Virus record (IMG/VR): IMGVR_UViG_3300028392_000175
Coordinates: 1-34,560 of that record
Length of the DNA: 34,560 bases
Strand: one strand, 5' to 3'
From: a virus
The position numbers were made by a program, and so were the translations under genes. Under the pieces are notes generated by a model, which did not search any database, had not been told where the DNA came from, and saw only the letters and a list, made by a program, of their open reading frames with translations. The stretch's first letter is position 1. Each line of letters starts with the position of its first letter. Below, piece after piece: positions 2,336-32,335 of the stretch.

Positions 2336-3376
2336 ATGGCATATACAGATACCTCTGGCTCGTCACTAGGTACTTCCCTAGTTCAGACAGCTTATGATCG
2401 TTATGTAGAATTTGCTCTCCGTGCTGTTCCACTTATCCGCGATGTTGCTGATAAGCGTCCAGTACAGCAGGCAATGCCAGGCTCATCCGTTGTATTCCAA
2501 ATTTACAACGACATGACCGCAGTAACATCCCCTCTTTCAGAGACAACTGATCCAGATGCAGTAGCCATCGGCAACACTACACCTATTACAGTTACTCTGA
2601 ACGAATACGGAAATGCTTCACTTGCTACTCGCAAGTTGGAACTTTTCTCACTCTCAGATGTTGATCCAGCAATTGCTGACATCATCGCTTTCAACATGGC
2701 AGACAGCCTTGACACTGTTGCATTACGCGAATTGAACTTCGGTTCAAACGTAATCGCAGAGCCAACAGGCGCTCCTACAACACCAATCAGCACATATGCT
2801 GGTTCATACACAAACGGTACTTCACAGGCCTTGATTCAGAATACTTCTACAATCAAGTCACGTGACATCCGTCTTGCAGTAGCTAAGCTACGCGCCAACA
2901 AGGTTGTCCCACGTCAGGGAGAATACTACTGGTGCGGTATCCACCCTGAAGTTTCACACGATCTTCGTGCTGAAACAGGTTCAGGTGGATGGCGTGATGA
3001 CCATAAGTACTCAGAGACTGGTTCATCCCAGTTCTGGCCAGGTACTATCGGTACATACGAAGGCGCAATGTTCGTGGAATCTCCACGTCTATTCAACACA
3101 ACCGACGGTTCTGGCGCTTCAGGCGCAACAGGAACATTTGGTGCTTCAAGTTACGTATATGGTACAGGTGGCGTTCGCGTCTTCCGTACTCTTGTTGCTG
3201 GTAAGCAAGCACTTGCAGAAGCAGTTGCTGAAGAACCACACGTAATCTTCGGACCAATCGTTGACAAGTTGATGCGTTTCCGTCCAATCGGCTGGTACGG
3301 CGTACTTGGTTTCAAGCGCTACCGTTCAGAAGCATTGGTTCGTATCGAATCATCTTCATCTATTAACGCTTCTTAG
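2336..3376 (+). CDS. Major capsid protein (N4-gp56-like, HK97-type fold)
   Basis: A 346-residue protein with a strong GAAGGTG ribosome binding site. The N-terminal region has the pattern of N4-gp56-family capsid proteins: an aromatic helix (YDRYVEFALRAVPLIRDVAD), then GSSVVFQIYNDMTAV, a loop with an acidic SPLSETTDPDAV, and VTLNEYGNASLATRKLEL before a long helix with DPAIADIIAFNMADSLDTVA. Length fits the family. Codon choice is visibly more regular than in neighbours (cgt, aag and ttc preferred), as expected for the most highly expressed virion gene. A stable hairpin follows the stop codon. Several hundred copies would form the icosahedral head. Confidence 0.9.
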   Translation: MAYTDTSGSSLGTSLVQTAYDRYVEFALRAVPLIRDVADKRPVQQAMPGSSVVFQIYNDMTAVTSPLSETTDPDAVAIGNTTPITVTLNEYGNASLATRKLELFSLSDVDPAIADIIAFNMADSLDTVALRELNFGSNVIAEPTGAPTTPISTYAGSYTNGTSQALIQNTSTIKSRDIRLAVAKLRANKVVPRQGEYYWCGIHPEVSHDLRAETGSGGWRDDHKYSETGSSQFWPGTIGTYEGAMFVESPRLFNTTDGSGASGATGTFGASSYVYGTGGVRVFRTLVAGKQALAEAVAEEPHVIFGPIVDKLMRFRPIGWYGVLGFKRYRSEALVRIESSSSINAS

Positions 3377-3710: not shown

Positions 3711-5140
<1,430 letters not shown>

Positions 5141-5149
5141 GATAAAACA

Positions 5150-5518
5150 ATGGCAACTTTTACAAAGGTAAATCTTTCAGGTAGCACGCAAGGTAAAGCC
5201 ATTAAGATTGCGGCAACTACTTCAGGTAGTGCTGGTACAACTGTCCACGCAACAGGAACATCATCATCAATCATTGACGAAGTTTGGCTTTATGCTTACA
5301 ACTCATCATCAGCAGCAGTTGTTTTAACAGTTCAATGGGGCGGTGTGACAGCTGTTGACAATGAAATTAAATTAACAATTCCTGCCACATCTGGTTTAAC
5401 TTTGGTTGTACCTGGATTAATTCTAACTGGCACGGGTAGCGCGGCAAATACCATTGCAGCTTATGCTGCAACAACCAACGTCATAACAATTTCAGGGTAT
5501 GTAAATAGGATTTCCTAA
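5150..5518 (+). CDS. Hypothetical beta-rich virion protein
   Basis: A 122-residue protein rich in Ser, Thr, Ala and Val, predicted by eye to be all beta (VWLYAYNSSSAAVVLTVQWGG, then NEIKLTIPATSGLTLVVPG). It has no Cys and no membrane segment. It lies between the collagen-like fibre and the first glycine-rich fibre gene, and its stop overlaps the next ATG (TAATG). This fits a small decoration or fibre-tip protein, though I recognise no named family. Confidence 0.65.
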   Translation: MATFTKVNLSGSTQGKAIKIAATTSGSAGTTVHATGTSSSIIDEVWLYAYNSSSAAVVLTVQWGGVTAVDNEIKLTIPATSGLTLVVPGLILTGTGSAANTIAAYAATTNVITISGYVNRIS

Positions 5519-6432
5519 TGCCATATTTTTTACGCCGTATGGTTTCATCCAGCCAAGTTTCTGATTCATTCAAAATGGGTAACCAAATTGCAATTCCTTC
5601 ACGTCAAAGTTCAGTCAAAGCAACTGGTGGAACAATTACAGTTACCAGCGATTATGTTTATCACGCTTTTACTTTGAGTGGCACATTTGCACCAACAGTT
5701 CCATCTATTACTTGCGACATTTTAGTTGTTGCTGGTGGTGGAGGTGGAGGATTTTCTTACGGTGGAGGCGGTGGCGCAGGGGGCGTTATTGCTTTTGCCG
5801 CACAAGCAATCACCACTCCACAAACAGTCGTTATTGGTATGGGTGGTAATGGAAGTCGCAGCGGTGCTGGTCAATACGGAAGCAATTCACAATTTGGAAC
5901 GCTAACTGCTGCTGTCGGTGGAGGCGGTGGCGGTTATCCCAATACTGGCGTTGCTGGCGGTTCGGGCGGCGGTGGTGCTGGAACTACGACTACTGGAACT
6001 GGCGGAACTGGAACTTCTGGACAAGGCAATAGAGGTGGCAATAGAACTGCTACATCTGGCGCTTCTGGTGCTGGCGGTGGTGGCGCAGGAGCTGCTGGCA
6101 CAGATAATGCTTCAACTAATACTGGCAGCACTGGCGGCATTGGAACCACATCAGTTACAAACTGGGGCGCATTAACGGCAGTATTATCCGCGACTGGTTT
6201 AGGTGTAAGTAATTACCTTGCTGGTGGTGGCGGTGGTGGCTCTGGTGCAACTGGTACTCCATCTATTGCTGGGGGACTTGGTGGGGGCGGCGCATCAGGC
6301 ACTTCAACTGCTGACGGTATTGAGGCAGTTGCTAATACAGGTTCAGGCGGTGGTGCTGGCTCAAATATCAGTACGGCTACTGCTGGCGGTAATGGTGCTA
6401 ATGGTTTAATTTTAGTTAGGTACGCAGTATGA
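5518..6432 (+). CDS. Glycine-rich fibre protein 1
   Basis: A 304-residue protein. The N-terminus (RRMVSSSQVSDSF) is shared with the next gene and probably anchors it to the particle. After a beta stretch (about 40-70) comes the hallmark DILVVAGGGGGG and some 220 residues dominated by Gly, Ala, Ser and Thr, ending in GLILVRYAV. This is the glycine-rich domain pattern of phage fibre tips, where glycine-rich loops form the receptor-contact surface. Its stop overlaps the following ATG (ATGA). It is one of three related genes in this genome. Confidence 0.75.
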   Translation: MPYFLRRMVSSSQVSDSFKMGNQIAIPSRQSSVKATGGTITVTSDYVYHAFTLSGTFAPTVPSITCDILVVAGGGGGGFSYGGGGGAGGVIAFAAQAITTPQTVVIGMGGNGSRSGAGQYGSNSQFGTLTAAVGGGGGGYPNTGVAGGSGGGGAGTTTTGTGGTGTSGQGNRGGNRTATSGASGAGGGGAGAAGTDNASTNTGSTGGIGTTSVTNWGALTAVLSATGLGVSNYLAGGGGGGSGATGTPSIAGGLGGGGASGTSTADGIEAVANTGSGGGAGSNISTATAGGNGANGLILVRYAV

Positions 6433-7373
6433 GTGGCTCATTACTAAGAACGCTTTCATCAAGTCAAGTTTCTGATTGGTTTAGTCAAACATCAGGAAAC
6501 CAAACTATTCCTGTTCCTTCAAGAATAGCAGGAATTGATTTTCTAGTTATTGCTGGGGGCGGCGGTGGCGGTTTATCTGGTGGCGGTGGCGGTGCTGGTG
6601 GTTATAGAACTAGCGTAGGAACATCAGGCAGAGGCGCTATTGCCGAAAACAAATTTGTTATTGCTTTATCAACAAACTACACAGTCACCATCGGTGGCGG
6701 AGGAACGGCTGGCACTACTTCGGGAACAGATGCTGGAACTGGAAGCAACAGTGTTTTTGCAACTATCACTTCCCTTGGCGGTGGCAGAGGTTCTTCAATT
6801 AACAACACACTTGTCGGCGGTGTTGGTGGTTCAGGTGGTGGTGCTACTTCAAAAGAATTTCCTTCGTTCAAAGGTTTAGGTGCTACTGGACAAGGTTTTG
6901 ACGGTGGCAATAACTATTTAACTACTCCAGTTTTGACAGGTGGCTCAGGTGGTGGCGGTGGCGGTGCGGGTGCAAATGGTAGCAGCGGTAGCTCAACTGT
7001 TGGCGGCAATGGTGGCTCTGGATTAAGCAATAACATTACTGGAACTGCTGTTGGTCGCGGTGGTGGTGGGGGTGGCGGTGCTGCTTCACCTAACGTAGCA
7101 GGAACTGCTTCTGACGGCGGTGGTGCTGGTCGCAATAATAGAACTGCCGCAACTGCTGGAACTGTTAACACGGGTGGCGGTGGGGGCGGTGGCGGATACC
7201 TTTTGGGTTTTGGCGCTGGTGGTGCTGGTGGTTCAGGGCTAGTTGTCTTGCGATACCCAGACACATTAACAATTACAGTTGGCGTAGGTTTAACAGGTAC
7301 GACACCAGCGGCAGCAAATGGTTTCAAATACACATCAATCACAGCAGGTACTGGAACAGTGAGTTGGGCATAA
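6429..7373 (+). CDS. Glycine-rich fibre protein 2
   Basis: A 314-residue paralogue of the preceding gene. It shares the anchor (LLRTLSSSQVSDWF), the FLVIAGGGGGG entry into the glycine-rich region, and the LVVLRYPD exit, then adds about 35 residues (ITVGVGLTGTT to TGTVSWA). The two are adjacent with a 4-base overlap, so they look like a tandem duplication followed by divergence. A small MAHYA protein follows, as also happens after the third copy. Likely a receptor-binding fibre or fibre tip. Confidence 0.75.
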   Translation: MSGSLLRTLSSSQVSDWFSQTSGNQTIPVPSRIAGIDFLVIAGGGGGGLSGGGGGAGGYRTSVGTSGRGAIAENKFVIALSTNYTVTIGGGGTAGTTSGTDAGTGSNSVFATITSLGGGRGSSINNTLVGGVGGSGGGATSKEFPSFKGLGATGQGFDGGNNYLTTPVLTGGSGGGGGGAGANGSSGSSTVGGNGGSGLSNNITGTAVGRGGGGGGGAASPNVAGTASDGGGAGRNNRTAATAGTVNTGGGGGGGGYLLGFGAGGAGGSGLVVLRYPDTLTITVGVGLTGTTPAAANGFKYTSITAGTGTVSWA

Positions 7374-11516: not shown

Positions 11517-12398
11517 ATGCCAATACTTTCAGCATTAGCAAACTCATCGGCTGGTGCGTACAAAAAGAATGCACCATCAACAATGACGGTTACGTATCTT
11601 GTACTTGCTGGTGGTGGCGATGGCGCTGGCTCTGGTGGCGGTGGTGCTGGTGGTTATCTAGAAAGTAGCATTGTTCTTAATAGAGGAACAACGCAGACTG
11701 TTACTGTTGGCGCAGGTGGCGCCGCTTATTCTAGTTCTAGTTACCCTAGTGCAAACTTAGCAAACGGAAGTAATTCTGTGTTTGGTAGCATAACCGCAAC
11801 TGGCGGTGGTGGTGGCGCCTATGGCACTCTTGGAACAGTAGGTTCTTCAGGTGGTTGTGGTGGTGGTTCAATTGGAACAACAACGGGTGGAACAGGAACG
11901 CAAAATTACAATGGCGGTGGAACAGCCTCTGGCGGCAGTGGTTCAACTAGCGGTGGTGGTGGTGGCGGAGCTGGAAGTGTTGGTGGGAATGGCACAACAG
12001 CAGCATACCCAACAGGCGGTATTGGCGGAGATGGCGTTTATAGTTCTATAACAGGAACATCAATTGGTCGCGGTGGTGGCGGTGGAGCATCAGGCTATTC
12101 AACTAATATGACAACAACGCAGGCTGATAATTATGGTGGTGGATGTCCTGGCAGTACTATTGCTGGCGCTAGCATTGAACGCACCCCTATTGTAAATAGA
12201 GGCGGTGGCGGTGCTGCTAAATACACAGGTGGTGGAACCGTTACAACAACTGGTGGTGGTTCTGGTGTTGTTATTATTTCTTACCCAACATCAGCAGGTT
12301 TAGCTGCATCAACTACAGGTTCTCCAACTCAGACAACCGTAGGCAGTAACTATGTTTATCAATGGACAGGTTCAGGAAGCATTACACTACCTTCGTAA
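11517..12398 (+). CDS. Glycine-rich fibre protein 3
   Basis: A 293-residue protein with TYLVLAGGGDGAGSGG at 25-42 opening a glycine-rich region that runs to about residue 255 and closes with GGGSGVVIISYPTSA. The terminal segment (QTTVGSNYVYQWTGSGSI) is reminiscent of fibre caps. It is related in design to the genes at 5518 and 6429 but lacks their RRMVSSSQVSDSF anchor, so it may attach at another site on the tail. A MAHFA protein follows. Confidence 0.75.
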   Translation: MPILSALANSSAGAYKKNAPSTMTVTYLVLAGGGDGAGSGGGGAGGYLESSIVLNRGTTQTVTVGAGGAAYSSSSYPSANLANGSNSVFGSITATGGGGGAYGTLGTVGSSGGCGGGSIGTTTGGTGTQNYNGGGTASGGSGSTSGGGGGGAGSVGGNGTTAAYPTGGIGGDGVYSSITGTSIGRGGGGGASGYSTNMTTTQADNYGGGCPGSTIAGASIERTPIVNRGGGGAAKYTGGGTVTTTGGGSGVVIISYPTSAGLAASTTGSPTQTTVGSNYVYQWTGSGSITLPS

Positions 12399-15993: not shown

Positions 15994-16023
15994 AAACCCC
16001 CGCCTTAACTGGCGGGGGTTTTT
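15994..16023 (+). terminator. Rho-independent terminator of the late operon
   Basis: AAACCCCCGCC (15994-16004) and GGCGGGGGTTT (16011-16021) form a perfect 11-base-pair stem with loop TTAACT, followed by a run of five T (16019-16023). It sits 22 bases after the holin stop and ends the structural and lysis transcript. Confidence 0.9.
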
Positions 16024-16581: not shown

Positions 16582-16768
16582 ACAGGATCGTCGCAAAGCA
16601 AACGTCGCTAACACCGACGCTTTTAGATCAGCATTTGTACAGGCAGAACTTGTTATGAGACAAGCTCTAGCCATTAGAATTGATAAAGCAATACAAGCAG
16701 AGACTAATCCTGATATAATCATTGGCTACGAGAAAGCACGAAAGATTGTGACAGGGGAAGTTGAATGA
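16574..16768 (+). CDS. Hypothetical helical protein inserted within split exonuclease
   Basis: A 64-residue protein, overlapping its neighbours on both sides (8 bases upstream, ATGA downstream). It begins MNRQDRRKAN and is helical throughout (FVQAELVMRQALAIRIDKAI), charged, without Cys. No family recognised. Its tight coupling to the exonuclease C-fragment gene indicates it is translated. Confidence 0.6.
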   Translation: MNRQDRRKANVANTDAFRSAFVQAELVMRQALAIRIDKAIQAETNPDIIIGYEKARKIVTGEVE

Positions 16769-17442
16769 TAGATACACAAGCCATATGGGATGAAGCCTTT
16801 TTAGCGCAGATAGCTGAGGTTGAGGCTAAGTCTGGCAGCAATCCAACTGATTGGCGCACAGGTGGACGTAAGACTAAAGATAACCCAGACAAAGAGAACA
16901 AAGCCTGGTGGGATGAGAACGGCAAGAAGATGCTGGATGATTTTATCCAGTCCTACAAGGCTAACAACTGGAAAGTCTGGGTAACACCGCAAGGTGTGCC
17001 AGGTATCGAACTTGGTATGACCTGTATGTTTGGCGATGTACCTATCAAAGCCTTCGTTGACTTGGTGTTTGAAAACCCAGACGGTTCACTTACCGTAGTT
17101 GATCTAAAGACTGGCGCACGTACACCAGACTCAAGCCTTCAGCTTGGTGTCTATGCTGCTTGTATTGAAATGACTTTTGGTATTCGCCCTCAGTATGGTG
17201 CATACTACAGCGCAAGAAGTGCTACGCTAGAACCTAGCGCTGGTATTGAAAGATGGACAGAGCCAGTACTTACCGAGATGTTTGCGCAGTTCCAGCGAGG
17301 ACTAGATGCGCAAATCTTTTTACCTAACATCGGTATGTCGTGTGGAACTTGCGGCGTAAAGGACTATTGTTATGCCATTGGCGGACAACTTGCACAGATT
17401 TATGACCCACTAGCAACCATAAAAGAAAAGGAAAGCAAATGA
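16765..17442 (+). CDS. C-terminal (catalytic) part of Cas4/RecB-like exonuclease
   Basis: A 225-residue protein carrying the PD-(D/E)XK core: E82 (GIELGM), D99 (KAFVDLVF), D113 and K115 (TVVDLKTG), then Q126 and Y130 (LQLGVYAAC). Three C-terminal cysteines, C193, C196 and C202 (SCGTCGVKDYC), are the usual last three ligands of the [4Fe-4S] cluster; the first lies on the separate N-fragment. WRTGGRKTKDNPDKENKAWW is also typical of the actinophage family. Role: processing DNA ends during recombination-dependent replication. N plus C fragments total 289 residues, close to the usual length of one-chain homologues. Confidence 0.8.
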   Translation: MIDTQAIWDEAFLAQIAEVEAKSGSNPTDWRTGGRKTKDNPDKENKAWWDENGKKMLDDFIQSYKANNWKVWVTPQGVPGIELGMTCMFGDVPIKAFVDLVFENPDGSLTVVDLKTGARTPDSSLQLGVYAACIEMTFGIRPQYGAYYSARSATLEPSAGIERWTEPVLTEMFAQFQRGLDAQIFLPNIGMSCGTCGVKDYCYAIGGQLAQIYDPLATIKEKESK

Positions 17443-17864: not shown

Positions 17865-18689
17865 ATGCTATCGCTGTCGCAAGCAGCAGCTAAGTCAGTA
17901 AACGATCATGCTATCCTGCCAGACCTTTTCCCTTCACTGCAAAGTGATGGGATTAGGTTTCGGCGGGGACAGCTGACGATGATTGCAGGCGCACCTAACG
18001 CAGGCAAATCATTACTGGCGCTATACATGGCTGTTAATATGAAGGTACCTACGCTATACATCAGCGCAGATACCGATGCTTACACGACGGCGATACGTGC
18101 TGCTGCAATGGTGACAGGTTCACAAGTTTCATCAGTTGAAGAATCGTTTGCAACTGAAGTAGGTATGGAGTTTTACCAGTCAGAGCTAGATAGCATTACT
18201 CATCTACGATTTGACTTTGCTCCAAGCCCAACCCTTGATGAGATTGATCTGTCCCTTCGTGCATATGCCGAAGCATTTGGTGAGTATCCCCATTTGCTTA
18301 TCGTTGACAACGCCATGAACGTAGTGTCAATGCACGAAAACGAATGGTCGGGGCTACGCGAGATAGCCAAGGCTATGCACCACATCGCCCGTGAGACAGA
18401 AGCTGCGGTGTTTTTATTACATCACACTTCTGAGGCAGAAGGCCAAGCCGATATGCCACCAAGTAGAAAAGCGATTCAAGGTAAAATTTCGCAACTGCCC
18501 GAAATGATCTTAACTGTTGCCCTTGTACAACACACAGGAGAATTTAGAGTAGCAGCGGTAAAGAATCGCTTCGCTCAACACTCGCCTAATGGTGCTAAGT
18601 ATGTATCATTATGGAGTGATGCTTCAAGAATGAACATCTATACTCATAGGCAAACAAGCTATGCGTCATCATCATGGGAGTACAACTAA
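17865..18689 (+). CDS. DnaB/RecA-like replicative ATPase (helicase core)
   Basis: A 274-residue P-loop ATPase. Walker A is GAPNAGKS (42-49), Walker B is HLLIVDN (143-149), and VFLLHHTSE (182-190) is the sensor-type strand seen in DnaB, RadA and related RecA-fold proteins. The N-terminal DnaB domain is missing and the size matches the helicase core only. It should act in phage DNA replication, next to exonuclease, resolvase and primase genes. Whether it is a true helicase or a RadA-like recombinase cannot be settled from motifs. Confidence 0.8.
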   Translation: MLSLSQAAAKSVNDHAILPDLFPSLQSDGIRFRRGQLTMIAGAPNAGKSLLALYMAVNMKVPTLYISADTDAYTTAIRAAAMVTGSQVSSVEESFATEVGMEFYQSELDSITHLRFDFAPSPTLDEIDLSLRAYAEAFGEYPHLLIVDNAMNVVSMHENEWSGLREIAKAMHHIARETEAAVFLLHHTSEAEGQADMPPSRKAIQGKISQLPEMILTVALVQHTGEFRVAAVKNRFAQHSPNGAKYVSLWSDASRMNIYTHRQTSYASSSWEYN

Positions 18690-19842: not shown

Positions 19843-20027
19843 TGAACGAATCAGCTCGTAATAAATTAAGCGACGCCCCAATTGAAATTAATAATGAAGA
19901 AGCCTTAAAGGCAAGACTTGAAGACGCATGGAGAAAAGTTGACTTAAACGATAAAATAATTATTCGATTGGAAGCGCAAATAAAAGTACTTAAAGAGATT
20001 ATTAGTGAAGGTTTGCGCAGTTATTGA
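19842..20027 (+). CDS. Coiled-coil hypothetical protein
   Basis: A 61-residue protein starting at ATG 19842 in a TAATG overlap; an upstream GTG start is less likely. From about residue 20 it is a continuous charged helix with heptad-like leucines and isoleucines (IIIRLEAQIKVLKEIISEGL). Ends in a TGATG overlap with the primase zinc-domain gene. Function unknown. Confidence 0.65.
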   Translation: MNESARNKLSDAPIEINNEEALKARLEDAWRKVDLNDKIIIRLEAQIKVLKEIISEGLRSY

Positions 20028-20392
20028 TGGCAGATAAACCTGATCTTGGCGCAGTACTTGAAGCCTATGGCTGCGCAGTATCTCCTAGGTATGGGTGGGT
20101 AGCGTGTAAGTGCGTAGTCCATGAAGACTCACACGCATCAGCTGCCTACAACCTAGACATTCAGATGTATAACTGCTTGGTATGTAATTTACTAGGCGAT
20201 GTTTACGACCTAGTTAAAGCAAAAGAAAACTTGAAAGGATTCCCAGATGTTAAACGCAGAGCAGAGAAACTTGCTAACGGAAGCAGCCACAAGATACTCC
20301 GAACATCGAAACGAGGCGACAGCCTCATACCTATTGGGACGAGGAATAAGTCCAGCGGTGGCGGATTTGTACCAGCTTGGAAGCGTCGTTGA
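20027..20392 (+). CDS. Primase zinc-binding domain protein (part 1 of split primase)
   Basis: A 121-residue protein, start ATG 20027. C29 and H32 (CVVH) with C50 and C53 (CLVC) form the CHC2-type zinc site of DnaG-like primases, within ASAAYNLDIQMYNC and LGDVYDLVKA, both typical. The C-terminal 50 residues are basic and end FVPAWKRR. The last 146 bases overlap the start of the TOPRIM gene in another frame (+1 relative to this one). Actinophage primases are often encoded as two genes, so this may act with the next product. Confidence 0.8.
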   Translation: MADKPDLGAVLEAYGCAVSPRYGWVACKCVVHEDSHASAAYNLDIQMYNCLVCNLLGDVYDLVKAKENLKGFPDVKRRAEKLANGSSHKILRTSKRGDSLIPIGTRNKSSGGGFVPAWKRR

Positions 20393-20882
20393 TCCTAGCA
20401 TTGGACATGAGATGGCAGTTGGAATGTTATCTATTCCTTACCGTACTCCTGCTGGTATCAACGGGATTAAATTTCGCCGCATAGATAACGGCACACCTAA
20501 GTACCTTTGGCCTACTGGCCAGAAGATTGGACTGTTCAATGTCATGGATCTACATAAGTCCTCAGACACCATCGCAATCTGCGAAGGCGAGATTGATACG
20601 ATTGTGCTTAGCGGTCTTGTTGGTATTCCCGCTGTTGGCGTTGCTGGCGTCAGTCAATGGAAGCCTTGGTTTCCGAAACTCTTTGAATCGTATAACCGAA
20701 TTCTTATCTTCGCTGACAACGACGTCAAAGAAGACGGACGAAACCCAGGACAAGAGCTAGCCAAGCGAATTAAAGAGGACTTAAACACAGCAACAGTAGT
20801 CCACTTAGATGATAATAAAGATGTTAACGACACGTACCTAGAACATGGTTCCGCGTGGTTCGATGATAGACTGGCGGCATGA
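20247..20882 (+). CDS. Primase TOPRIM domain protein (part 2 of split primase)
   Basis: A 211-residue protein with the TOPRIM catalytic motifs: E113 in ICEGEIDTIV and the D157/D159 pair in IFADNDVKEDG, where metal ions bind. Preceding it, GMLSIPYRTPAGINGIKFRRI is the DnaG-type N-terminal catalytic subdomain. The frame is open only from 20235, so the ATG at 20247 is the only ATG start before the conserved region. It overlaps the zinc-domain gene by 146 bases. Synthesises RNA primers, probably together with the zinc protein. No helicase fusion is present. Confidence 0.8.
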   Translation: MLNAEQRNLLTEAATRYSEHRNEATASYLLGRGISPAVADLYQLGSVVDPSIGHEMAVGMLSIPYRTPAGINGIKFRRIDNGTPKYLWPTGQKIGLFNVMDLHKSSDTIAICEGEIDTIVLSGLVGIPAVGVAGVSQWKPWFPKLFESYNRILIFADNDVKEDGRNPGQELAKRIKEDLNTATVVHLDDNKDVNDTYLEHGSAWFDDRLAA

Positions 20883-21442
20883 CAACAGTAGTTGGACTAC
20901 AAGGCCCGAACTGGGCAGTAGTCGGAGCAGATACGCGAGTTGCTGAAGACTCTCGTATCTTCTCTATGCCAAAGGGAACTGGCAAGATCATACGCAAGGA
21001 AGGCTACATCGTAGCCCTAGCTGGTGACTTTAGACCAGCGCAGATATTTGCACACCAGTTTGACTTTCCCAAACCACCTGCTTATACAACCGTAGAGGCA
21101 CTAGATAAATTCATGACTGTAGATTTCCTTCCATTGGTGCAAGAGGCATACAAAGAAGTCGGTTATGAAGTAAAGAATGCAGAAGAAGGGACTGATCTAA
21201 TTGTCGCAACTCAAGGAACGATCTACAACGTTGGAGCTGATTCAACGTGGGCTAGAGATAGACGTGGAATCTATGCTATTGGAACTGGGAGCGCTTACGC
21301 CATCGGGGCTATCGCCGCGTTTGGTATCCCGAAAAGTGTTGACGATGCAGTTAGTATCGTCAAACAAGCGCTACACATTGCAACAGACTACGACAGTAAC
21401 TCAGGTCAACCAGTAATTATTCATCAACAGGTGCGAGCATGA
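20879..21442 (+). CDS. Proteasome/HslV-like Ntn-hydrolase
   Basis: A 187-residue protein beginning MTTVVGL. After loss of Met the N-terminal Thr1 would be the nucleophile, as in HslV. Counting from it, D17 lies in VVGADTR and the Lys of GTGKIIRK falls at 35, near the catalytic Lys33 of HslV; YIVALAGD matches the glycine-rich strand, and YAIGTGSAYAIGAIAA matches the G-S-G loop. The length is close to HslV (about 175). It could be a self-assembling protease ring that needs a host unfoldase, or a different amidohydrolase of this fold. No unfoldase gene is seen here. Confidence 0.75.
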   Translation: MTTVVGLQGPNWAVVGADTRVAEDSRIFSMPKGTGKIIRKEGYIVALAGDFRPAQIFAHQFDFPKPPAYTTVEALDKFMTVDFLPLVQEAYKEVGYEVKNAEEGTDLIVATQGTIYNVGADSTWARDRRGIYAIGTGSAYAIGAIAAFGIPKSVDDAVSIVKQALHIATDYDSNSGQPVIIHQQVRA

Positions 21443-21642
21443 GTGCAGATCCAACATTTATAGGCGGGCCTTGGGATGGCGGTAAAGTGGCTATGCCACT
21501 CTGGGCGCTTGACCAAATTAAATACGCAGCCGATGTCCAAATTGACCAGGTTGTGTACATTTGCTATGATTTAGATGAAGATACAAAGAATTATATTTAC
21601 AAAGGTCAGAAGATCCTACCCAGAAAGCAGGTTGAAGAATGA
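21439..21642 (+). CDS. Hypothetical protein with FIGGPWDGG motif
   Basis: A 67-residue protein coupled by ATGA to the Ntn-hydrolase gene. The N-terminal FIGGPWDGGKV motif is recurrent in small actinobacterial and phage proteins of unknown role. It continues in beta-type stretches (QVVYICYDLDEDTKNYIYKG). Overlaps the next gene by ATGA. Confidence 0.65.
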   Translation: MSADPTFIGGPWDGGKVAMPLWALDQIKYAADVQIDQVVYICYDLDEDTKNYIYKGQKILPRKQVEE

Positions 21643-21923
21643 GTAACAAGTTAGCCGATGACATGTGGGCAATCTTTGATGGCGCAGGCAACCTGCTGCT
21701 CCAGAAGCATAAGGATTATGGCCCAAAGAATATCGCTGGCGCTCCAGGCGGCCCTCTTAATGGACTGCGTGTACGTATGTGGGACAAGACAGCTCGTATC
21801 AATCACCTGATTGACAGCGGTGCTACACCTGAGAATGAATCTCTGCGAGATTCTTTTCTGGACTTACTTAACTACAGCGCGATAGCGTTGTTAGTCTTAG
21901 ATGGGAACTGGCCAGAAAATTGA
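21639..21923 (+). CDS. DUF1599 / nucleotide-modification-associated domain protein
   Basis: A 94-residue helical protein with LLLQKHKDYGPKNI, LNGLRVRMWDKTARINHL and ESLRDSFLDLLNYSAIALL. This order matches the DUF1599 (Nmad1-type) family, which resembles MazG-like helical bundles and is found beside nucleotide-metabolism genes in phages. A role in dNTP pool control or base modification is possible. No reaction can be read from the sequence. Confidence 0.7.
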   Translation: MSNKLADDMWAIFDGAGNLLLQKHKDYGPKNIAGAPGGPLNGLRVRMWDKTARINHLIDSGATPENESLRDSFLDLLNYSAIALLVLDGNWPEN

Positions 21924-22657
21924 AAACAATAGTTGTCCTGTCCGATCTTCAATCGCCTTACCATGATGTGCCAGCAACTAAGGCCATTGCCAAGTTCATC
22001 AGAGCTTACAAGCCAGATAGCGTGGCTAGTGTAGGAGATGAGATAGATCTTCCGCAAATCTCCCGCTGGGAAGAAGGCGGTGAAGGTGAATGGCAACGTG
22101 ACTTAGGTCGTCACCGAGATATTACAGTTAAACTATTAGAAGAATTGCAAGTGGATCATATTGTTCGCAGTAATCATAGCGACAGATTGTATAACAAGAT
22201 CAAGTCGAAAGCCCCTGGCTTTCTTGGCTTACCAGAATTAGAGATTGAAAAGTTCTTAAAGCTAGATAGCCTTGGCATTACCTACCATCATGGGCCATAT
22301 GAACTAGCACCCAACTGGCTACTTATGCACGGCGATGAAGGTAACGTTCAACCTACTGCTGGTGCTACCGCTCTTGGCTTAGCCAAACGCTCAGGCATGA
22401 GCGTAGTCTGTGGGCATACGCATCGCATGGGTTTGACTCATCATACTCAGGGCTGGGCTGGTAAAACTAAGACTATCTGGGGTATGGAAGTCGGCAACCT
22501 CATGGACTATAAGTATGCGCGCTATATTAAAGCAGGGTTATTTACCTGGAATAAAGGTTTTGGATTACTCCATGTCAATGGCAATACGGTCATGCCGCAG
22601 CTTGTACCTATCGTAAACAATTCATTTACAGTGGACGGTAAAGTCTGGAAATGGTAA
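21920..22657 (+). CDS. Calcineurin-like metallophosphoesterase
   Basis: A 245-residue protein starting at TTG in a TTGA overlap. Metal-binding motifs are in order: SDLQSPYHD (D9), SVGDEIDLP (D40), RSNHSDR (N85, H86), LMHGDEG and CGHTHR. These are the five blocks of the family; it would hydrolyse phosphodiesters or phosphomonoesters with two metal ions. In phages, relatives include DNA-end or nucleotide phosphatases. Substrate unknown. Its end overlaps the PP-loop gene by 7 bases. Confidence 0.82.
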   Translation: MKTIVVLSDLQSPYHDVPATKAIAKFIRAYKPDSVASVGDEIDLPQISRWEEGGEGEWQRDLGRHRDITVKLLEELQVDHIVRSNHSDRLYNKIKSKAPGFLGLPELEIEKFLKLDSLGITYHHGPYELAPNWLLMHGDEGNVQPTAGATALGLAKRSGMSVVCGHTHRMGLTHHTQGWAGKTKTIWGMEVGNLMDYKYARYIKAGLFTWNKGFGLLHVNGNTVMPQLVPIVNNSFTVDGKVWKW

Positions 22658-23484
22658 CAAAACATGTAGTAATGTTTTCAGGTGGCATCGGTTCTTGGGC
22701 TGCCGCAAAAATGGTTGCAAGTACATTTGGGACAGATAATCTTTATTTGTTATTTACGGATGTTAAAGGAAATGCAGAATCTTCTCATATTGGAGAAGAT
22801 GAAGATACTTACAGATTCCTTAATGATGCCGTTGCCAATGTCGGTGGTAAATATATTTACATTAACGAAAACAAAGATATTTGGGAAGTATTTAAGGAAA
22901 AAAAATATCTTGGCAATTCTCGATTAGCACATTGTTCTTTTGAATTAAAACAAAAACCAGCAAGAAAATGGCTTAATGAAAATTGCGACCCAAATAATAC
23001 TATTGTTTATGTTGGTATTGACTGGACAGAAACGCATCGTTTGCCAGCTATAGTCAAAAACTACAAACCATATGTAGCTGTTGCTCCATTGGCCGAGCCT
23101 TTCTTTCATAAAGAAACTAAAATGTATTACGACAAGCATGAACTTATTGAATGGGCCAAGTCTGAAGGGCTTGAGCCACCACGTTTGTACAGTTTAGGGT
23201 TTAACCATAACAATTGCGGCGGCGGGTGTGTACGTGCTGGACAAGGACAATTCAAAAAATTGCTGGAAATAATGCCAGAACGGTTTGCCATGTGGGAAAC
23301 AAAAGAGCAAGAAGTTATTCAACATATTGGGAAAGATGTTTCAATCTTAACAGAAACTGTTAAAGGCATTAAAAAACCTTTACCTTTAATAGAATTGAGA
23401 AAAAGAATTGAAAGTCAGTGCGCTATTGATGAATATGATATTGGCGGTTGTGGCTGTTTCTTTGAAGAAGACGAGAGACAGTAA
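22651..23484 (+). CDS. PP-loop ATPase / PAPS-reductase-like protein
   Basis: A 277-residue protein. SGGIGS (10-15) is the PP-loop that binds ATP in the PAPS-reductase and DndC-type superfamily. Conserved-looking cysteines are C95 (AHCSFELK), C189 and C193 (NCGGGCV) and C267/C269 (GGCGCF), which could hold an iron-sulfur cluster. Members adenylylate a substrate for sulfur or nitrogen transfer; phage members are linked to DNA or tRNA modification. The gene is clearly more AT-rich than its neighbours, with A or T in most third positions and runs such as GGAAAAAAAATAT, suggesting recent transfer. Confidence 0.78.
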   Translation: MVTKHVVMFSGGIGSWAAAKMVASTFGTDNLYLLFTDVKGNAESSHIGEDEDTYRFLNDAVANVGGKYIYINENKDIWEVFKEKKYLGNSRLAHCSFELKQKPARKWLNENCDPNNTIVYVGIDWTETHRLPAIVKNYKPYVAVAPLAEPFFHKETKMYYDKHELIEWAKSEGLEPPRLYSLGFNHNNCGGGCVRAGQGQFKKLLEIMPERFAMWETKEQEVIQHIGKDVSILTETVKGIKKPLPLIELRKRIESQCAIDEYDIGGCGCFFEEDERQ

Positions 23485-23949
23485 ATGGTAGTTGTTAAGT
23501 TAAGCGCAGGAGATGTAGCGTGGGCAACCAATGAAGCGGTCAGCAGGTACAACTTTAACAGAGCAAGAGGTAATGACCATTCTGGTAGCGCTGCTAAGAC
23601 ATGGGTCGAAGCCATCGCACGTGAGATTTCAGGTGTACTTGGCGAGATTGCTGTGGCACGTTGGCTTGATAAGTTTCCCCATACTCTTTTTGAAGATCGC
23701 AAGACTGGCGATGTGGCAGGCCATGAGATTCGCACTACTACGTACACTACGGGTCGCCTCATTCTTACTAAGACTGACGACCCGACTCGAAAGTATTTCT
23801 TAGTTACATTGCCAGATCATTACACTGCCAACATAGTTGGCTGGCTCTATGGTTATGAAGGACAGAAGGAAGAACATTGGAATACCGACTTCTCTATCCC
23901 CTGCTACACCATTGAGCAGCAACGATTGCACGACGTTAGGGATATGTGA
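23485..23949 (+). CDS. Conserved hypothetical protein, possible nuclease-like fold
   Basis: A 154-residue protein directly after the PP-loop gene. The pattern GVLGEIAVARWL, then TGDVAGHEIRTTTYTTGRLIL, gives an E, a D and an E-x-R in the order of a PD-(D/E)XK core, with Arg in place of Lys. Downstream, YFLVTLPDHYTANIVGWLYG and IPCYTIEQQRLH complete an alpha/beta domain. Similar proteins are found in actinophages without known function. Nuclease activity is only a guess given the missing Lys. Confidence 0.6.
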   Translation: MVVVKLSAGDVAWATNEAVSRYNFNRARGNDHSGSAAKTWVEAIAREISGVLGEIAVARWLDKFPHTLFEDRKTGDVAGHEIRTTTYTTGRLILTKTDDPTRKYFLVTLPDHYTANIVGWLYGYEGQKEEHWNTDFSIPCYTIEQQRLHDVRDM

Positions 23950-24584
23950 AGCCTTGGTTAGATGAAGCAACCGACATCGCATCGCAAGTTGCCAAACAAA
24001 TACATAAGCGGTACCACACGTACTTTGCTATTGATGACTTACGTCAGGAACTTATCCTCTGGTGCGTCTCACGTCCCGACAAGATTCAACAGTGGCTTAA
24101 CCCTGAGCAAAGTCCTGAGGATTACAAGGGTGGTATTAACCAGCTTGCTAAGACTCTTTCCCGCCATGCTGATCGCTATTGTCGCAAGGCTAAAGCACAA
24201 GCGGTAGGCTATGAGTTACGCGATGAGGTGTATTACTCACCTGCTCTACTTTCCGAGCTGTTGCCTCATGTCTGGTCTAACGTAGCGCCAACTGCTGACA
24301 CTACTAAGCCACGTGTATCAGGTGGTGGTGCGCCAGCAGAAGGTGGCAACTATGTTGTCTCGCTCTTTGATGTACGCGCTGGGTTAGAGAAGCTAGATCC
24401 TGATGATCGTGTTGTCTTGCAGTATCGCTTCTTTGAGAACTTAACCTATACCGACCTTGCTGTTGTCCTTAACATCTCCGACTCATCTGCTCACCGTAAG
24501 GTGGACGGTGCGTTGCGTCGTTTGTGTCGCCACTTAGGTGGCGATAATCCATTCATCTCTAAGAAGGGTAAACCTCATGCCTAG
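23946..24584 (+). CDS. Sigma-70-like transcription factor
   Basis: A 212-residue protein with GTG start (GTGA overlap). Residues about 28-85 resemble sigma region 2 (FAIDDLRQELILWCVSR). A Gly/Ala/Pro linker (about 115-137) leads to residues 145-196, a clear region-4 helix-turn-helix: GLEKLDPDDRVVLQYRFFE, then LTYTDLAVVLNISDSSAHRKVDGALRRL. It could direct host RNA polymerase to phage promoters such as the TGN-TANNNT elements or late promoters. Alternatively it is a sigma-like DNA-binding regulator. It is the second-last gene of the replication operon, as expected for an early-to-late switch. Confidence 0.7.
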   Translation: MKPWLDEATDIASQVAKQIHKRYHTYFAIDDLRQELILWCVSRPDKIQQWLNPEQSPEDYKGGINQLAKTLSRHADRYCRKAKAQAVGYELRDEVYYSPALLSELLPHVWSNVAPTADTTKPRVSGGGAPAEGGNYVVSLFDVRAGLEKLDPDDRVVLQYRFFENLTYTDLAVVLNISDSSAHRKVDGALRRLCRHLGGDNPFISKKGKPHA

Positions 24585-24756: not shown

Positions 24757-24767
24757 TTAGAAAAGAA

Positions 24768-24805
24768 AACAACCCCCGTCAGGACAGGAACCGACGGGGG
24801 TTGTT
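24768..24805. terminator. Bidirectional terminator between convergent operons
   Basis: AACAACCCCCGTC (24768-24780) and GACGGGGGTTGTT (24793-24805) form a perfect 13-base-pair stem with a 12-base loop. Read on the minus strand it is followed by a T-rich TTCTTTTCT tail, so it is a good terminator for leftward transcripts; on the plus strand it is followed by CTTGTCT. It lies 11 bases after the last rightward gene. Confidence 0.85.
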
Positions 24806-24807
24806 CT

Positions 24808-25827: not shown

Positions 25828-26283
25828 TTAAAAGACTTCCGATGAAGCAGTATCCTGCGGTTTTGATTTTACGCGAGTTTGTCCTGTTCGCTCTTTGATC
25901 GAAAGTCTTTCCGAACTGTAGGTTGGTGCTGGTATATCCTTGGGAATTGATGGACATTCTAAGCCTGCCTTCTCTACCGCGTAAGCGCGTAGTCTGCGTT
26001 GCCAATCTGTATAACGAGTGTACTTTGCTTGGGTTGCGCCTAATTCTAGGCGCTCATAGGGGAAGCTACCACCGTAGATACCATCACCAATAGAAAATAT
26101 ATTACTCATCGCGTCGTCCAAGCAAGTCTTTTGGACGGGACAAGTGGCGCAGATTTGTAACGCTACAAGTGTGCGAGCTGCTTCTGCTTCTCGACCATCT
26201 TTCATACGCGCTGTTGGGCTGGGAAACCATAGTTCTGGATCATGTCCAGCGCAGGCTGGCTTCATGTCAGGCTTTAGTGTCAA
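25828..26283 (-). CDS. whiB: WhiB-family iron-sulfur transcription regulator
   Basis: A 151-residue protein with the four cluster ligands C11, C45, C48 and C54 (ACAGHDPELWFP; ICATCPVQKTC) and the GIYGG turn (SIGDGIYGG) that follows in Wbl proteins, then a basic C-terminal tail for DNA contact. The start is TTG 26283, preceded by GGGAG; an ATG at 26265 would leave only four residues before C11. WhiB proteins are confined to actinobacteria and their phages and act with sigma factors, so this is the strongest host indicator. It may reprogram host transcription or block superinfection, as described for mycobacteriophage WhiB. Confidence 0.92.
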   Translation of the reverse strand: MTLKPDMKPACAGHDPELWFPSPTARMKDGREAEAARTLVALQICATCPVQKTCLDDAMSNIFSIGDGIYGGSFPYERLELGATQAKYTRYTDWQRRLRAYAVEKAGLECPSIPKDIPAPTYSSERLSIKERTGQTRVKSKPQDTASSEVF

Positions 26284-30403: not shown

Positions 30404-30436
30404 TTCGCAGCGGGTGTATTAGGAGAATTGTATCCA

Positions 30437-32335
30437 ATGGCAAAACTACCCAAGCAGAGTATGCTCGCGCCTACAGCAGAGCTTTCGGCGCCACAGGCAA
30501 AAGATCTTATCGTCAAGTTAGTAACAGACGGTTTCTCAATTGCTGATGCAACTCGCGCCGCTCACAAGTCAATTAAGTCCTATGAGTATTATCGGGCATC
30601 CGATCCTCAATTCAAGGATGCCGTAGATTTAGCCCGCGCAGTTCAGCGCCGTAAAGGTGTCGTATCTGAAGAAGACAAAGACATCAGCTTTGAAGATTTT
30701 AGACTCAAGTATCTAAACAGTCAGACCTTCCCCCATCAGCGCAATATCATCTCGCTGCTGGAAGAAGGTGAGCCTGCTTGGCTACATCCGAGCATGACCT
30801 TTGAAAAGGCTTTCGCTAATTACGTTCTTTGTAATATGCCGCCTGAACACGCGAAGACGATGACGGTCAGCATTGACTACCTCACGTACCGCATCGTCAC
30901 AAATCCTAATATCAGAATTAAGGTTGTATCCAAGACTCAGGCAATGGCGAAGGAATTCGTATATGCCATTAAGCAAAGATTAACCTCTCCCACCTATGCT
31001 GAACTTCAAAGGCGCTACGCGCCAGCTGACGGCTACAAAGCCTCAGCCGAGAAGTGGACAGCAGATTCGATTTACTTAGAACGAGATAGCGGCGAAAAAG
31101 ATCCTACGCTACAGGCTCTAGGTATTGGCGGTCAAATCTATGGCGCACGTGCCGATTTGATCGTACTAGATGACTGCGTTACCTTGGCTAACGCCAATGA
31201 ATACGAGAAGCAGATTCGCTGGATCCAACAAGAAGTTTTAACCCGTGTTGGTCCAACAGGCAAAATTCTTATCGTGGGTACACGCGTAGATCCAATGGAT
31301 CTATACCGCGAAGTCCGCAATCCAGATCGCTACCCAGATGGCAAGTCTCCTTGGACTTACCTGGCTATGCCAGCTGTGCTTGAGTTTAAGGACAATCCAT
31401 CTAAATGGGTAACGCTATGGCCTAAGTCAGATCGCCCTTGGATGGGCAGTGACGATGAGCCAGATGCAGAAGGTTTATACCCACGCTGGGATGGCAAGAA
31501 TTTAAAGCAGCGTCGTGGCTTACTTGACCCAAAGACTTGGGCAATGGTTTACCAGCAACAGGATGTAGATAGTGAAGCAGTCTTTAGCCCAGAGTGTGTA
31601 CGCGGCAGTGTTAGCGGCATGCGGGCATCAGGCCCACTTATTGTCGGCGCACCTGGACATCCTGCAACCCTCACGGGCAGCTACACCATCTGCGCAATGG
31701 ATCCAGCAATGTCAGGAGATACGTTCTCAGTCGTTTACGCTGGAGACAAAGCAACACAGAAGCGATACATATTAGAAGCAAGTCGTATGCCTGCACCTAC
31801 ACCGCAGCGTATCCGCGAACTGATCTTCTCCTGGACTGATAAATACAACCCAAAGGTTTGGGTAATTGAGAAGAACGCTTTCCAGTTGTTCTTGACGATG
31901 GATGAAGAAATAAATAAGTTTTTAGCAAGTCGTGGTATCCGTCTAGTTCAACACTACACAGGTTCCAACAAAATGGATGCCGAGTTTGGCGTAGCCTCTA
32001 TGGCTCCGCTCTTTGGCTCACTGGACAAACTTGGTAAGCATATGGGAAACAATCTCATTGACTTACCACGCACTGATGGCGAAAGTATCAAGGCTCTTGT
32101 TGAGCAATTGATTACCTGGTCGCCAGGAACAAAGAATAAGCAAGATGGTCCAATGGCCTTGTGGTTCGCAGAGACTCAGATGAGAGATTACATCAATCAA
32201 TCTGGTTCATATGGATCTACATGGGTTAAGAATCCATTTGCTACACGCAACGACATCGCAAGACGCAAGGTTGTGAACTTGGAAGAATACGCAAAACTAC
32301 AGGAAAAAGTTGCTAACAACGGGGGGTACTACTAA
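30437..32335 (+). CDS. terL: Terminase large subunit with fused DNA-binding N-terminus
   Basis: A 632-residue protein. Start ATG 30437, with AGGAG 11 bases upstream; a TTG at 30428 is too near that site. Residues about 20-70 (KLVTDGFSIADATRAAHKSI, SYEYYRASDPQFKDAV) look like a small-terminase helix-turn-helix. The ATPase has a variant Walker A PPEHAKTM (135-142) and Walker B ADLIVLDDC (239-247). The nuclease has AMDPAMSG (D422) and VIEKNA (E478). It cuts and pumps DNA into the head through the portal. No separate small subunit was found, so the N-terminal domain may take that role. Confidence 0.9.
   Translation: MAKLPKQSMLAPTAELSAPQAKDLIVKLVTDGFSIADATRAAHKSIKSYEYYRASDPQFKDAVDLARAVQRRKGVVSEEDKDISFEDFRLKYLNSQTFPHQRNIISLLEEGEPAWLHPSMTFEKAFANYVLCNMPPEHAKTMTVSIDYLTYRIVTNPNIRIKVVSKTQAMAKEFVYAIKQRLTSPTYAELQRRYAPADGYKASAEKWTADSIYLERDSGEKDPTLQALGIGGQIYGARADLIVLDDCVTLANANEYEKQIRWIQQEVLTRVGPTGKILIVGTRVDPMDLYREVRNPDRYPDGKSPWTYLAMPAVLEFKDNPSKWVTLWPKSDRPWMGSDDEPDAEGLYPRWDGKNLKQRRGLLDPKTWAMVYQQQDVDSEAVFSPECVRGSVSGMRASGPLIVGAPGHPATLTGSYTICAMDPAMSGDTFSVVYAGDKATQKRYILEASRMPAPTPQRIRELIFSWTDKYNPKVWVIEKNAFQLFLTMDEEINKFLASRGIRLVQHYTGSNKMDAEFGVASMAPLFGSLDKLGKHMGNNLIDLPRTDGESIKALVEQLITWSPGTKNKQDGPMALWFAETQMRDYINQSGSYGSTWVKNPFATRNDIARRKVVNLEEYAKLQEKVANNGGYY

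Follow-up and report, generated by a model that had tools for sequence, protein, structure and literature searches.

The IMG/VR virus record IMGVR_UViG_3300028392_000175 is a contig of 34,560 bases, the whole of which is called the window below. We are concerned with one gene on its plus strand, the product of which is, as judged from its sequence and a predicted structure, an N-terminal nucleophile (Ntn) peptidase with the proteasome/HslV fold. The gene and the positions predicted to be functionally important are listed here, with residues numbered as in the window protein and conservation given for an alignment of 36 sequences of relatives.

20879 to 21442, plus strand: proteasome/HslV-fold Ntn threonine peptidase, 187 amino acids (PF00227, phrog_1040, AlphaFold model, fold matches in the PDB)
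20882 to 20884, plus strand: codon of Thr2, the predicted mature Thr1 nucleophile, directly after the initiator Met and with no propeptide (Thr in at least 90% of the alignment, otherwise Ser)
20930 to 20932, plus strand: codon of Asp18, the Asp17 equivalent (36/36)
20984 to 20986, plus strand: codon of Lys36, mature position 35, the Lys33 equivalent (36/36; paired with HslV Lys33 by profile)
21023 to 21025, plus strand: codon of Gly49, equivalent to Gly47 of the oxyanion hole (36/36)
21158 to 21193, plus strand: residues 94-105, an acidic loop that follows helix 2 and corresponds to the 'pore loop' of BPH (judged by its charge; in the model, helix 72-93 precedes it and strand 106-111 comes next)
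21281 to 21289, plus strand: G-T-G loop, residues 135-137 (Gly135 and Gly137 invariant)

The reading frame is intact, starts with ATG and has exactly the bounds given. It overlaps its neighbours by four bases at both ends, upstream a Toprim primase gene and downstream an open reading frame (ORF) of 67 amino acids, and its translation is therefore probably coupled to theirs. Relative to the two closest copies, the nonsynonymous divergence (dN) is 0.017-0.024 and the synonymous divergence (dS) 0.14-0.15, giving a dN/dS of about 0.12-0.16; dN that is this low compared to dS indicates purifying selection. Pfam yields a single family, PF00227 (Proteasome), at 31.4 bits against a curated cutoff of 22.4, and PHROGs yields phrog_1040, "peptidase HslV family", at 2.5e-22. 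On the grounds of the overlaps, these matches and the dN/dS ratio, the sequence is judged not to be a chance ORF. When it was searched alone against solved structures, only BPH came below 1e-5. A profile of the 36 relatives matched HslV at 1.7e-12 and BPH at 1.1e-10, nearly over the full length, and the alignment pairs Thr1, Asp17, Lys33 and the Gly loop.

A first-pass annotation of this DNA had proposed an HslV/proteasome-like Ntn hydrolase in which the N-terminal Thr after Met and Asp17 are kept. The class is borne out by PF00227, phrog_1040, the AlphaFold model and the fold matches, and the two residues are found as Thr2 and Asp18, with the conservation listed above. The annotation had also looked to relatives for the catalytic positions, and these are conserved across the 36 sequences. 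Two details have to be revised. A Lys had been placed near positions 33-35, which holds for the invariant Lys36 (mature 35); Lys32 is not the catalytic residue, because only Lys36 is invariant. The loop named G-S-G does exist and has that sequence in many relatives, but it is G-T-G in the window protein. Two of the aligned sequences, from the relatives' loci L011 and L061, have Ser in place of Thr1. Loss of activity was considered for these and rejected, as the family is known to use Ser1 as a nucleophile too (PMC8665760).

A start codon is possible directly before the Thr or Ser in all of the 83 relatives examined, most of which have few open codons further upstream, and nearly all start at this point. 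The mature protein would thus expose Thr1 by ordinary removal of Met, without a propeptide; the same lack is reported for the homologs, with the exception of proteasome beta and HslV (Fuchs et al. 2021, PMC8665760). At the other end of the protein, the copies at L008, L037 and L059 carry tails rich in Lys, Arg and Ala, as if for nucleic acid binding.

The AlphaFold model, calculated for a single chain with 34 related sequences, has a mean predicted local distance difference test score (pLDDT) of 90.7 and a predicted template modelling score (pTM) of 0.87. Its helices span residues 52-60, 72-93, 138-148 and 154-171, and none follows the strand 179-185, i.e. there is no fifth helix. The model thus displays the features of group I, a compact subunit with helices H1-H4, without H5 and without insertions. 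A comparison with HslV and proteasome beta subunits, which the first-pass annotation had suggested as a check, recovered the proteasome fold. In a Foldseek search of the PDB, BPH of Thiobacillus denitrificans ranks first (E 1.1e-12, template modelling scores 0.79/0.80), followed by HslV and then by proteasome beta subunits, all three with probability 1.00. The ranking of the solved structures differs between the methods, HslV being second to BPH by structure and first by profile score. Among viral models, the best match is an unnamed protein with 39% identity, followed by a phage protein that carries the name HslV. The stretch 92-105, which includes the acidic loop, has a net charge of -2 in the window protein and a median of -4 over the 36 sequences; such an acidic loop after H2 has been linked to the unfoldase-independence of BPH (Fuchs et al., PMC8665760).

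Group I comprises HslV, BPH, AAH, CPH and PPH (Fuchs, Alva and Lupas 2021, PMC8665760). Its members AAH, PPH and BPH have already been described in phages, AAH in many of them, but the authors found it in none that is specific to Actinobacteria (Fuchs et al., PMC8665760). In a tree of 43 proteins, including one BPH sequence, the window protein falls inside an actinophage clade of 30 rows, with support 95/81. The neighbouring clade (100/98) contains plasmid proteins of Rhizobium, Sinorhizobium, Streptomyces, Paraburkholderia and Bacillus, and also proteins of Geobacillus, Moorella, Psychrobacter and Escherichia phages; it fits AAH, a label that comes from the hosts and not from the published alignment. 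E. coli HslV and CodW form a branch of their own (100/99), outside which the window protein lies, and the single BPH sequence has a very long branch that is weakly joined to HslV. By this placement, the window protein is a group I peptidase of an actinophage-specific clade, which is the sister of the AAH-like clade and not part of it. The actinophage clade is widespread and occurs in at least 528 IMG/VR stretches.

The comparison with known systems agrees in some features and differs in others. AAH is likewise a compact group I member with an active triad and is present in bacteria and many phages. The AAH-like proteins from Rhizobium, Sinorhizobium and Streptomyces plasmids are ~30% identical to a member of the window clade, and most align with it at full length; the motif is AGDxR in the window clade and FTSSFRMGQ in the AAH-like one. 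BPH (PDB 5ovs/5ovt/5ovu) shares the fold, with a template modelling score of ~0.8, the acidic loop after helix 2 and the lack of a propeptide, and, as in the window phage, no dedicated unfoldase is known for it; however, it is bacterial and only ~26% identical. HslV (ClpQ), the name of which is used in phage annotation as "peptidase HslV family", has the same Thr1-Thr2, Asp17, Lys33 and Gly core, whereas the window protein has a longer acidic loop and no HslU adjoining it or elsewhere in the record. Because of the missing HslU-type ATPase and the position outside the HslV branch, we do not file the window protein as HslV. PPH is also a phage-encoded group I homolog, but with ~140 amino acids and without helix 2 (PMC8665760); at 187 amino acids and with helix 72-93, the window protein cannot be identified with it. 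PrcB, the actinobacterial 20S beta subunit, differs in that the window protein has no propeptide and its record no Pup or AAA match. The same actinophage clade includes the proteins annotated as 'protease' in Microbacterium phage Pumpernickel and Arthrobacter phage Pitbull, and as 'ATP-dependent protease subunit' in DSL-LC01. Identities to the window protein are 35% for DSL-LC01 and 24% for Pumpernickel, and the gene neighbourhoods differ. A scan of genome contigs gave a single relative, on a contig of a Gammaproteobacteria metagenome-assembled genome; its sequence groups with phage copies and says little about the distribution in bacteria.

In the window, the peptidase gene belongs to a run of plus-strand genes that is bounded by two terminator-like hairpins, one at ~16.0 kb and the other at ~24.8 kb:

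15994 to 16021, plus strand: terminator-like hairpin before the operon, 11 pairs with a T-rich tail
16765 to 17442, plus strand: exonuclease (phrog_1870, 1e-41)
17865 to 18689, plus strand: DnaB-like helicase (phrog_243, 1.1e-70)
20024 to 20392, plus strand: Zn-ribbon (CHC2-like) part of a primase (PF01807, just below cutoff)
20247 to 20882, plus strand: Toprim primase domain (phrog_849, 9.8e-35; PF13362), with a 4-base overlap with the peptidase start
21439 to 21642, plus strand: 67-amino-acid 'GGPxDG' ORF, with a 4-base overlap with the peptidase stop and co-inherited in close relatives
21639 to 21923, plus strand: DUF1599 ORF (PF07659, 26.8 bits, cutoff 25)
21920 to 22657, plus strand: metallophosphoesterase (phrog_221, 5.4e-73)
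22651 to 23484, plus strand: gene resembling phosphoadenosine phosphosulfate reductase (phrog_424), within the replication operon
23946 to 24584, plus strand: sigma-70-like factor at the operon end (PF04545, phrog_354)
24766 to 24807, minus strand: strong terminator-like hairpin at the operon end, 17 pairs

From this setting, we infer that the peptidase would be expressed early or in the middle of infection. By neighbourhood clustering, two separate branches of relatives have a metallophosphoesterase no more than ~1.2 kb away from the peptidase.

The GGPxDG ORF follows the peptidase closely in the lineage of the window. Among 66 lineage loci searched by tblastn, both were found in 32, neither in 28, the peptidase alone in five and the ORF alone in one. 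Some of these exceptions are only apparent, as a divergent GGPxDG ORF stands beside the peptidase at L011, L012 and L235. A strict tie between the two is weakened by L216 and L226, which have the ORF and no peptidase. The link is thus strong without being absolute.

The slot after the primase was compared in 36 loci, not dereplicated, in which primase identity to that of the window is 56% or more. The peptidase is present in 32 of these, and in the remaining four an HExTH ORF lies between the primase and the next gene:

L216, 2748 to 3089; L226, 2711 to 3043; also L225 and L227: small ORF with HExTH, a putative zinc metallopeptidase, at the place where the window has the HslV-like gene

Its match to a putative metallopeptidase family is below cutoff, and phrog_87 (metallo-protease) is matched at 3e-5. 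The slot would thus hold one of two unrelated peptidases, which is a hint, from four loci, that proteolysis is what is selected there. Moreover, the window lineage has two distant types of the peptidase itself beside similar primases and phosphoesterases, and this suggests either allele replacement or fast divergence. At L004, a close relative, a C5 DNA methyltransferase-like gene (5025 to 6034, plus strand), apparently broken up over two frames, is inserted between primase and peptidase.

The relationships of the phage and its host can be approached through three other genes of the window:

2336 to 3376, plus strand: major capsid protein, 64% identity to Planktophila phages E7/F5
26041 to 26262, minus strand: WhiB protein, an actinophage marker (PF02467, 48.4 bits, cutoff 23.6)
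30428 to 32335, plus strand: large terminase, 50% identity to Planktophila phages E7/F5

For both terminase and capsid protein, the closest relatives are OX376640 and OX376641, the Ca. Planktophila phages LanE43AprE7/F5, with Streptomyces phages next. OX376640 is Planktophila phage E7 (LanE43-AprE7), and OX376641 fits the sister phage F5; E7 was isolated on LanE-43, a strain of Ca. Planktophila, which belongs to the order Nanopelagicales (PMC10202952). WhiB is encoded in 20 of the 29 tested records of relatives and, among 14 control genomes, only in Corynebacterium rings. On the basis of the terminase, the capsid protein and WhiB, the host is probably a freshwater actinobacterium near Nanopelagicales, in agreement with the first-pass annotation, which had assumed an actinobacterial phage. 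Elsewhere in the window, the plus strand encodes proteins with collagen-like GxT/GxP and Gly-rich repeats (4058-5140, 5518-7373 and 11517-12398), probably of the tail or fibre, and on the minus strand an ORF at 29250-29609 matches the ArdC N-terminal domain of anti-restriction proteins (PF08401).

E7 has a distant copy of the peptidase, 28% identical to the window protein, the gene for which lies directly after the portal gene. The two phages thus have related structural genes and different positions of the peptidase gene, which suggests that the peptidase moves independently. A neighbouring portal gene, which is also found ~1-1.6 kb downstream of the peptidase at eight large-phage loci, could indicate a virion maturation (prohead) protease. 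We consider this highly improbable: in the window and its close relatives the peptidase belongs to the replication operon, far from terminase and portal, the portal families near the peptidase differ between phages, and the four close relatives with the HExTH ORF have a different putative peptidase in the slot. The known prohead proteases are of other folds.

Other branches of relatives have small genes of two further families near the peptidase:

L006, 8106 to 8360, and about 40 loci; L108 to L187: family B
L052, 5114 to 5470; L014, 280 to 615; and about 20 loci: family A, KOW/SH3-like ORF of ~111 amino acids

Family B is an acidic ORF of ~80 amino acids with a net charge of -7 to -16, and roughly half of the relatives fetched have it closely upstream of the peptidase. 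It has no Pfam or PHROGs match at 0.001, and its single-sequence fold (pLDDT 63) is too poor to use. When IMG/VR was scanned independently with B as the only query, 80 loci were found, of which 79 have the peptidase (57 of 58 distinct ones), in 74 cases within 2 kb downstream of B. Family A often adjoins B and the peptidase, and which of A and B comes first differs from locus to locus. Both families were searched in the window and the fetched loci, and neither is present in the window; B and the GGPxDG ORF had no match in the phages collection. We regard A, B and the GGPxDG ORF as leads to undescribed small partner genes. Tentatively, the actinophage clade could be a separate undescribed proteasome-like subfamily that serves the phage as a proteolysis module, in which the peptidase would be paired with a small non-ATPase regulator: B in about half of the relatives, the GGPxDG protein in the window lineage.

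The strict pairing with B in one branch and the pairing with the GGPxDG ORF in the window lineage could also mean one dedicated substrate or regulator. The protein would in that case be a specialised Ntn enzyme, such as a protein ligase, an amidase or a processing enzyme for a single substrate, with the triad and without a general degradation barrel. The family has a precedent in connectase, a proteasome relative that acts as a protein ligase (PMC8665760). However, the modelled core is compact, without the insertions typical of connectase, and the best fold match, BPH, forms barrels, which makes this alternative rather improbable.

A further question is that of an ATPase. No match to PF07724 or PF00004 was found in the record, which may be incomplete, in line with the earlier observation that no ATPase partner is visible. 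The AAA_25 match of the DnaB-like helicase was considered as an unfoldase and rejected. Overall, PF07724 is matched in 4 of 31 records, and the only candidate unfoldase seen is that of four large peptidase-bearing phages, which have it without ClpP:

L089, 2182 to 3609, minus strand: Clp-type AAA+ ATPase, 475 amino acids (phrog_4871); also in records G020 to G023

As the window phage has no dedicated ATPase, one of the host would serve, if any is needed, and the peptidase ring might then work with, compete for or poison ClpX/ClpC or Mpa/ARC and redirect host proteolysis. The actinobacterial host and the Clp-type ATPases of the four related phages are compatible with this, but the fold is nearer to the ring subunits of BPH and HslV than to the actinobacterial beta subunit, and we find the proposal unlikely. 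The first-pass annotation had proposed a phage ring that could replace, poison or redirect a presumed Pup-proteasome of the host. This is not supported, as the record has no Pup homolog and no proteasome ATPase and the closest solved relative is BPH, not the actinobacterial beta subunit; replacement or poisoning is at most a possible role.

In our view, the best explanation, and a fairly probable one, is that of a group I threonine peptidase that forms an ATP-independent, BPH-like ring and acts early in infection. It is favoured by the fold, the complete active site, the lack of a propeptide, the purifying selection, the acidic loop after helix 2, the position in the operon, the placement in the tree and the lack of an AAA+ partner, and the putative metallopeptidase in the same slot of four close relatives fits a proteolytic role. 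The methionine aminopeptidase of the host would remove Met to expose Thr1, and the subunits would stack into rings as in BPH and HslV, with the acidic loop near the pore limiting entry. Without a dedicated AAA+ unfoldase, the barrel would cut unfolded or small proteins, probably those of the host, during the replication phase of infection. Several points weigh against this explanation. The structure prediction concerns single chains, ring assembly and activity being predicted. Connectase has the family fold and is a ligase, and an intact triad is therefore no proof of proteolysis. A host ATPase is a possible partner. Finally, the E7 gene, directly 3' of the portal gene, is outside the replication operon; the gene position thus varies between phages, and early expression would be specific to the window lineage.

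Phages were already known to encode enzymes of this type, and the window protein belongs to an actinophage clade that occurs together with undescribed small partner genes. In the literature searched, no function is known for phage-encoded proteasome-like peptidases. The clade would close a gap to which Fuchs et al. had pointed, the lack of a known AAH in actinophages, and it includes isolated phages with cultured hosts, namely Microbacterium, Arthrobacter and Ca. Planktophila. The tightly linked small partner family offers a concrete starting point in the search for a protein that regulates a proteasome homolog without ATPase, or is cut by it. If the pairing with a small regulator is true, a phage adaptor would take the place of an ATPase in gating this proteasome-type protease or directing it to its targets.
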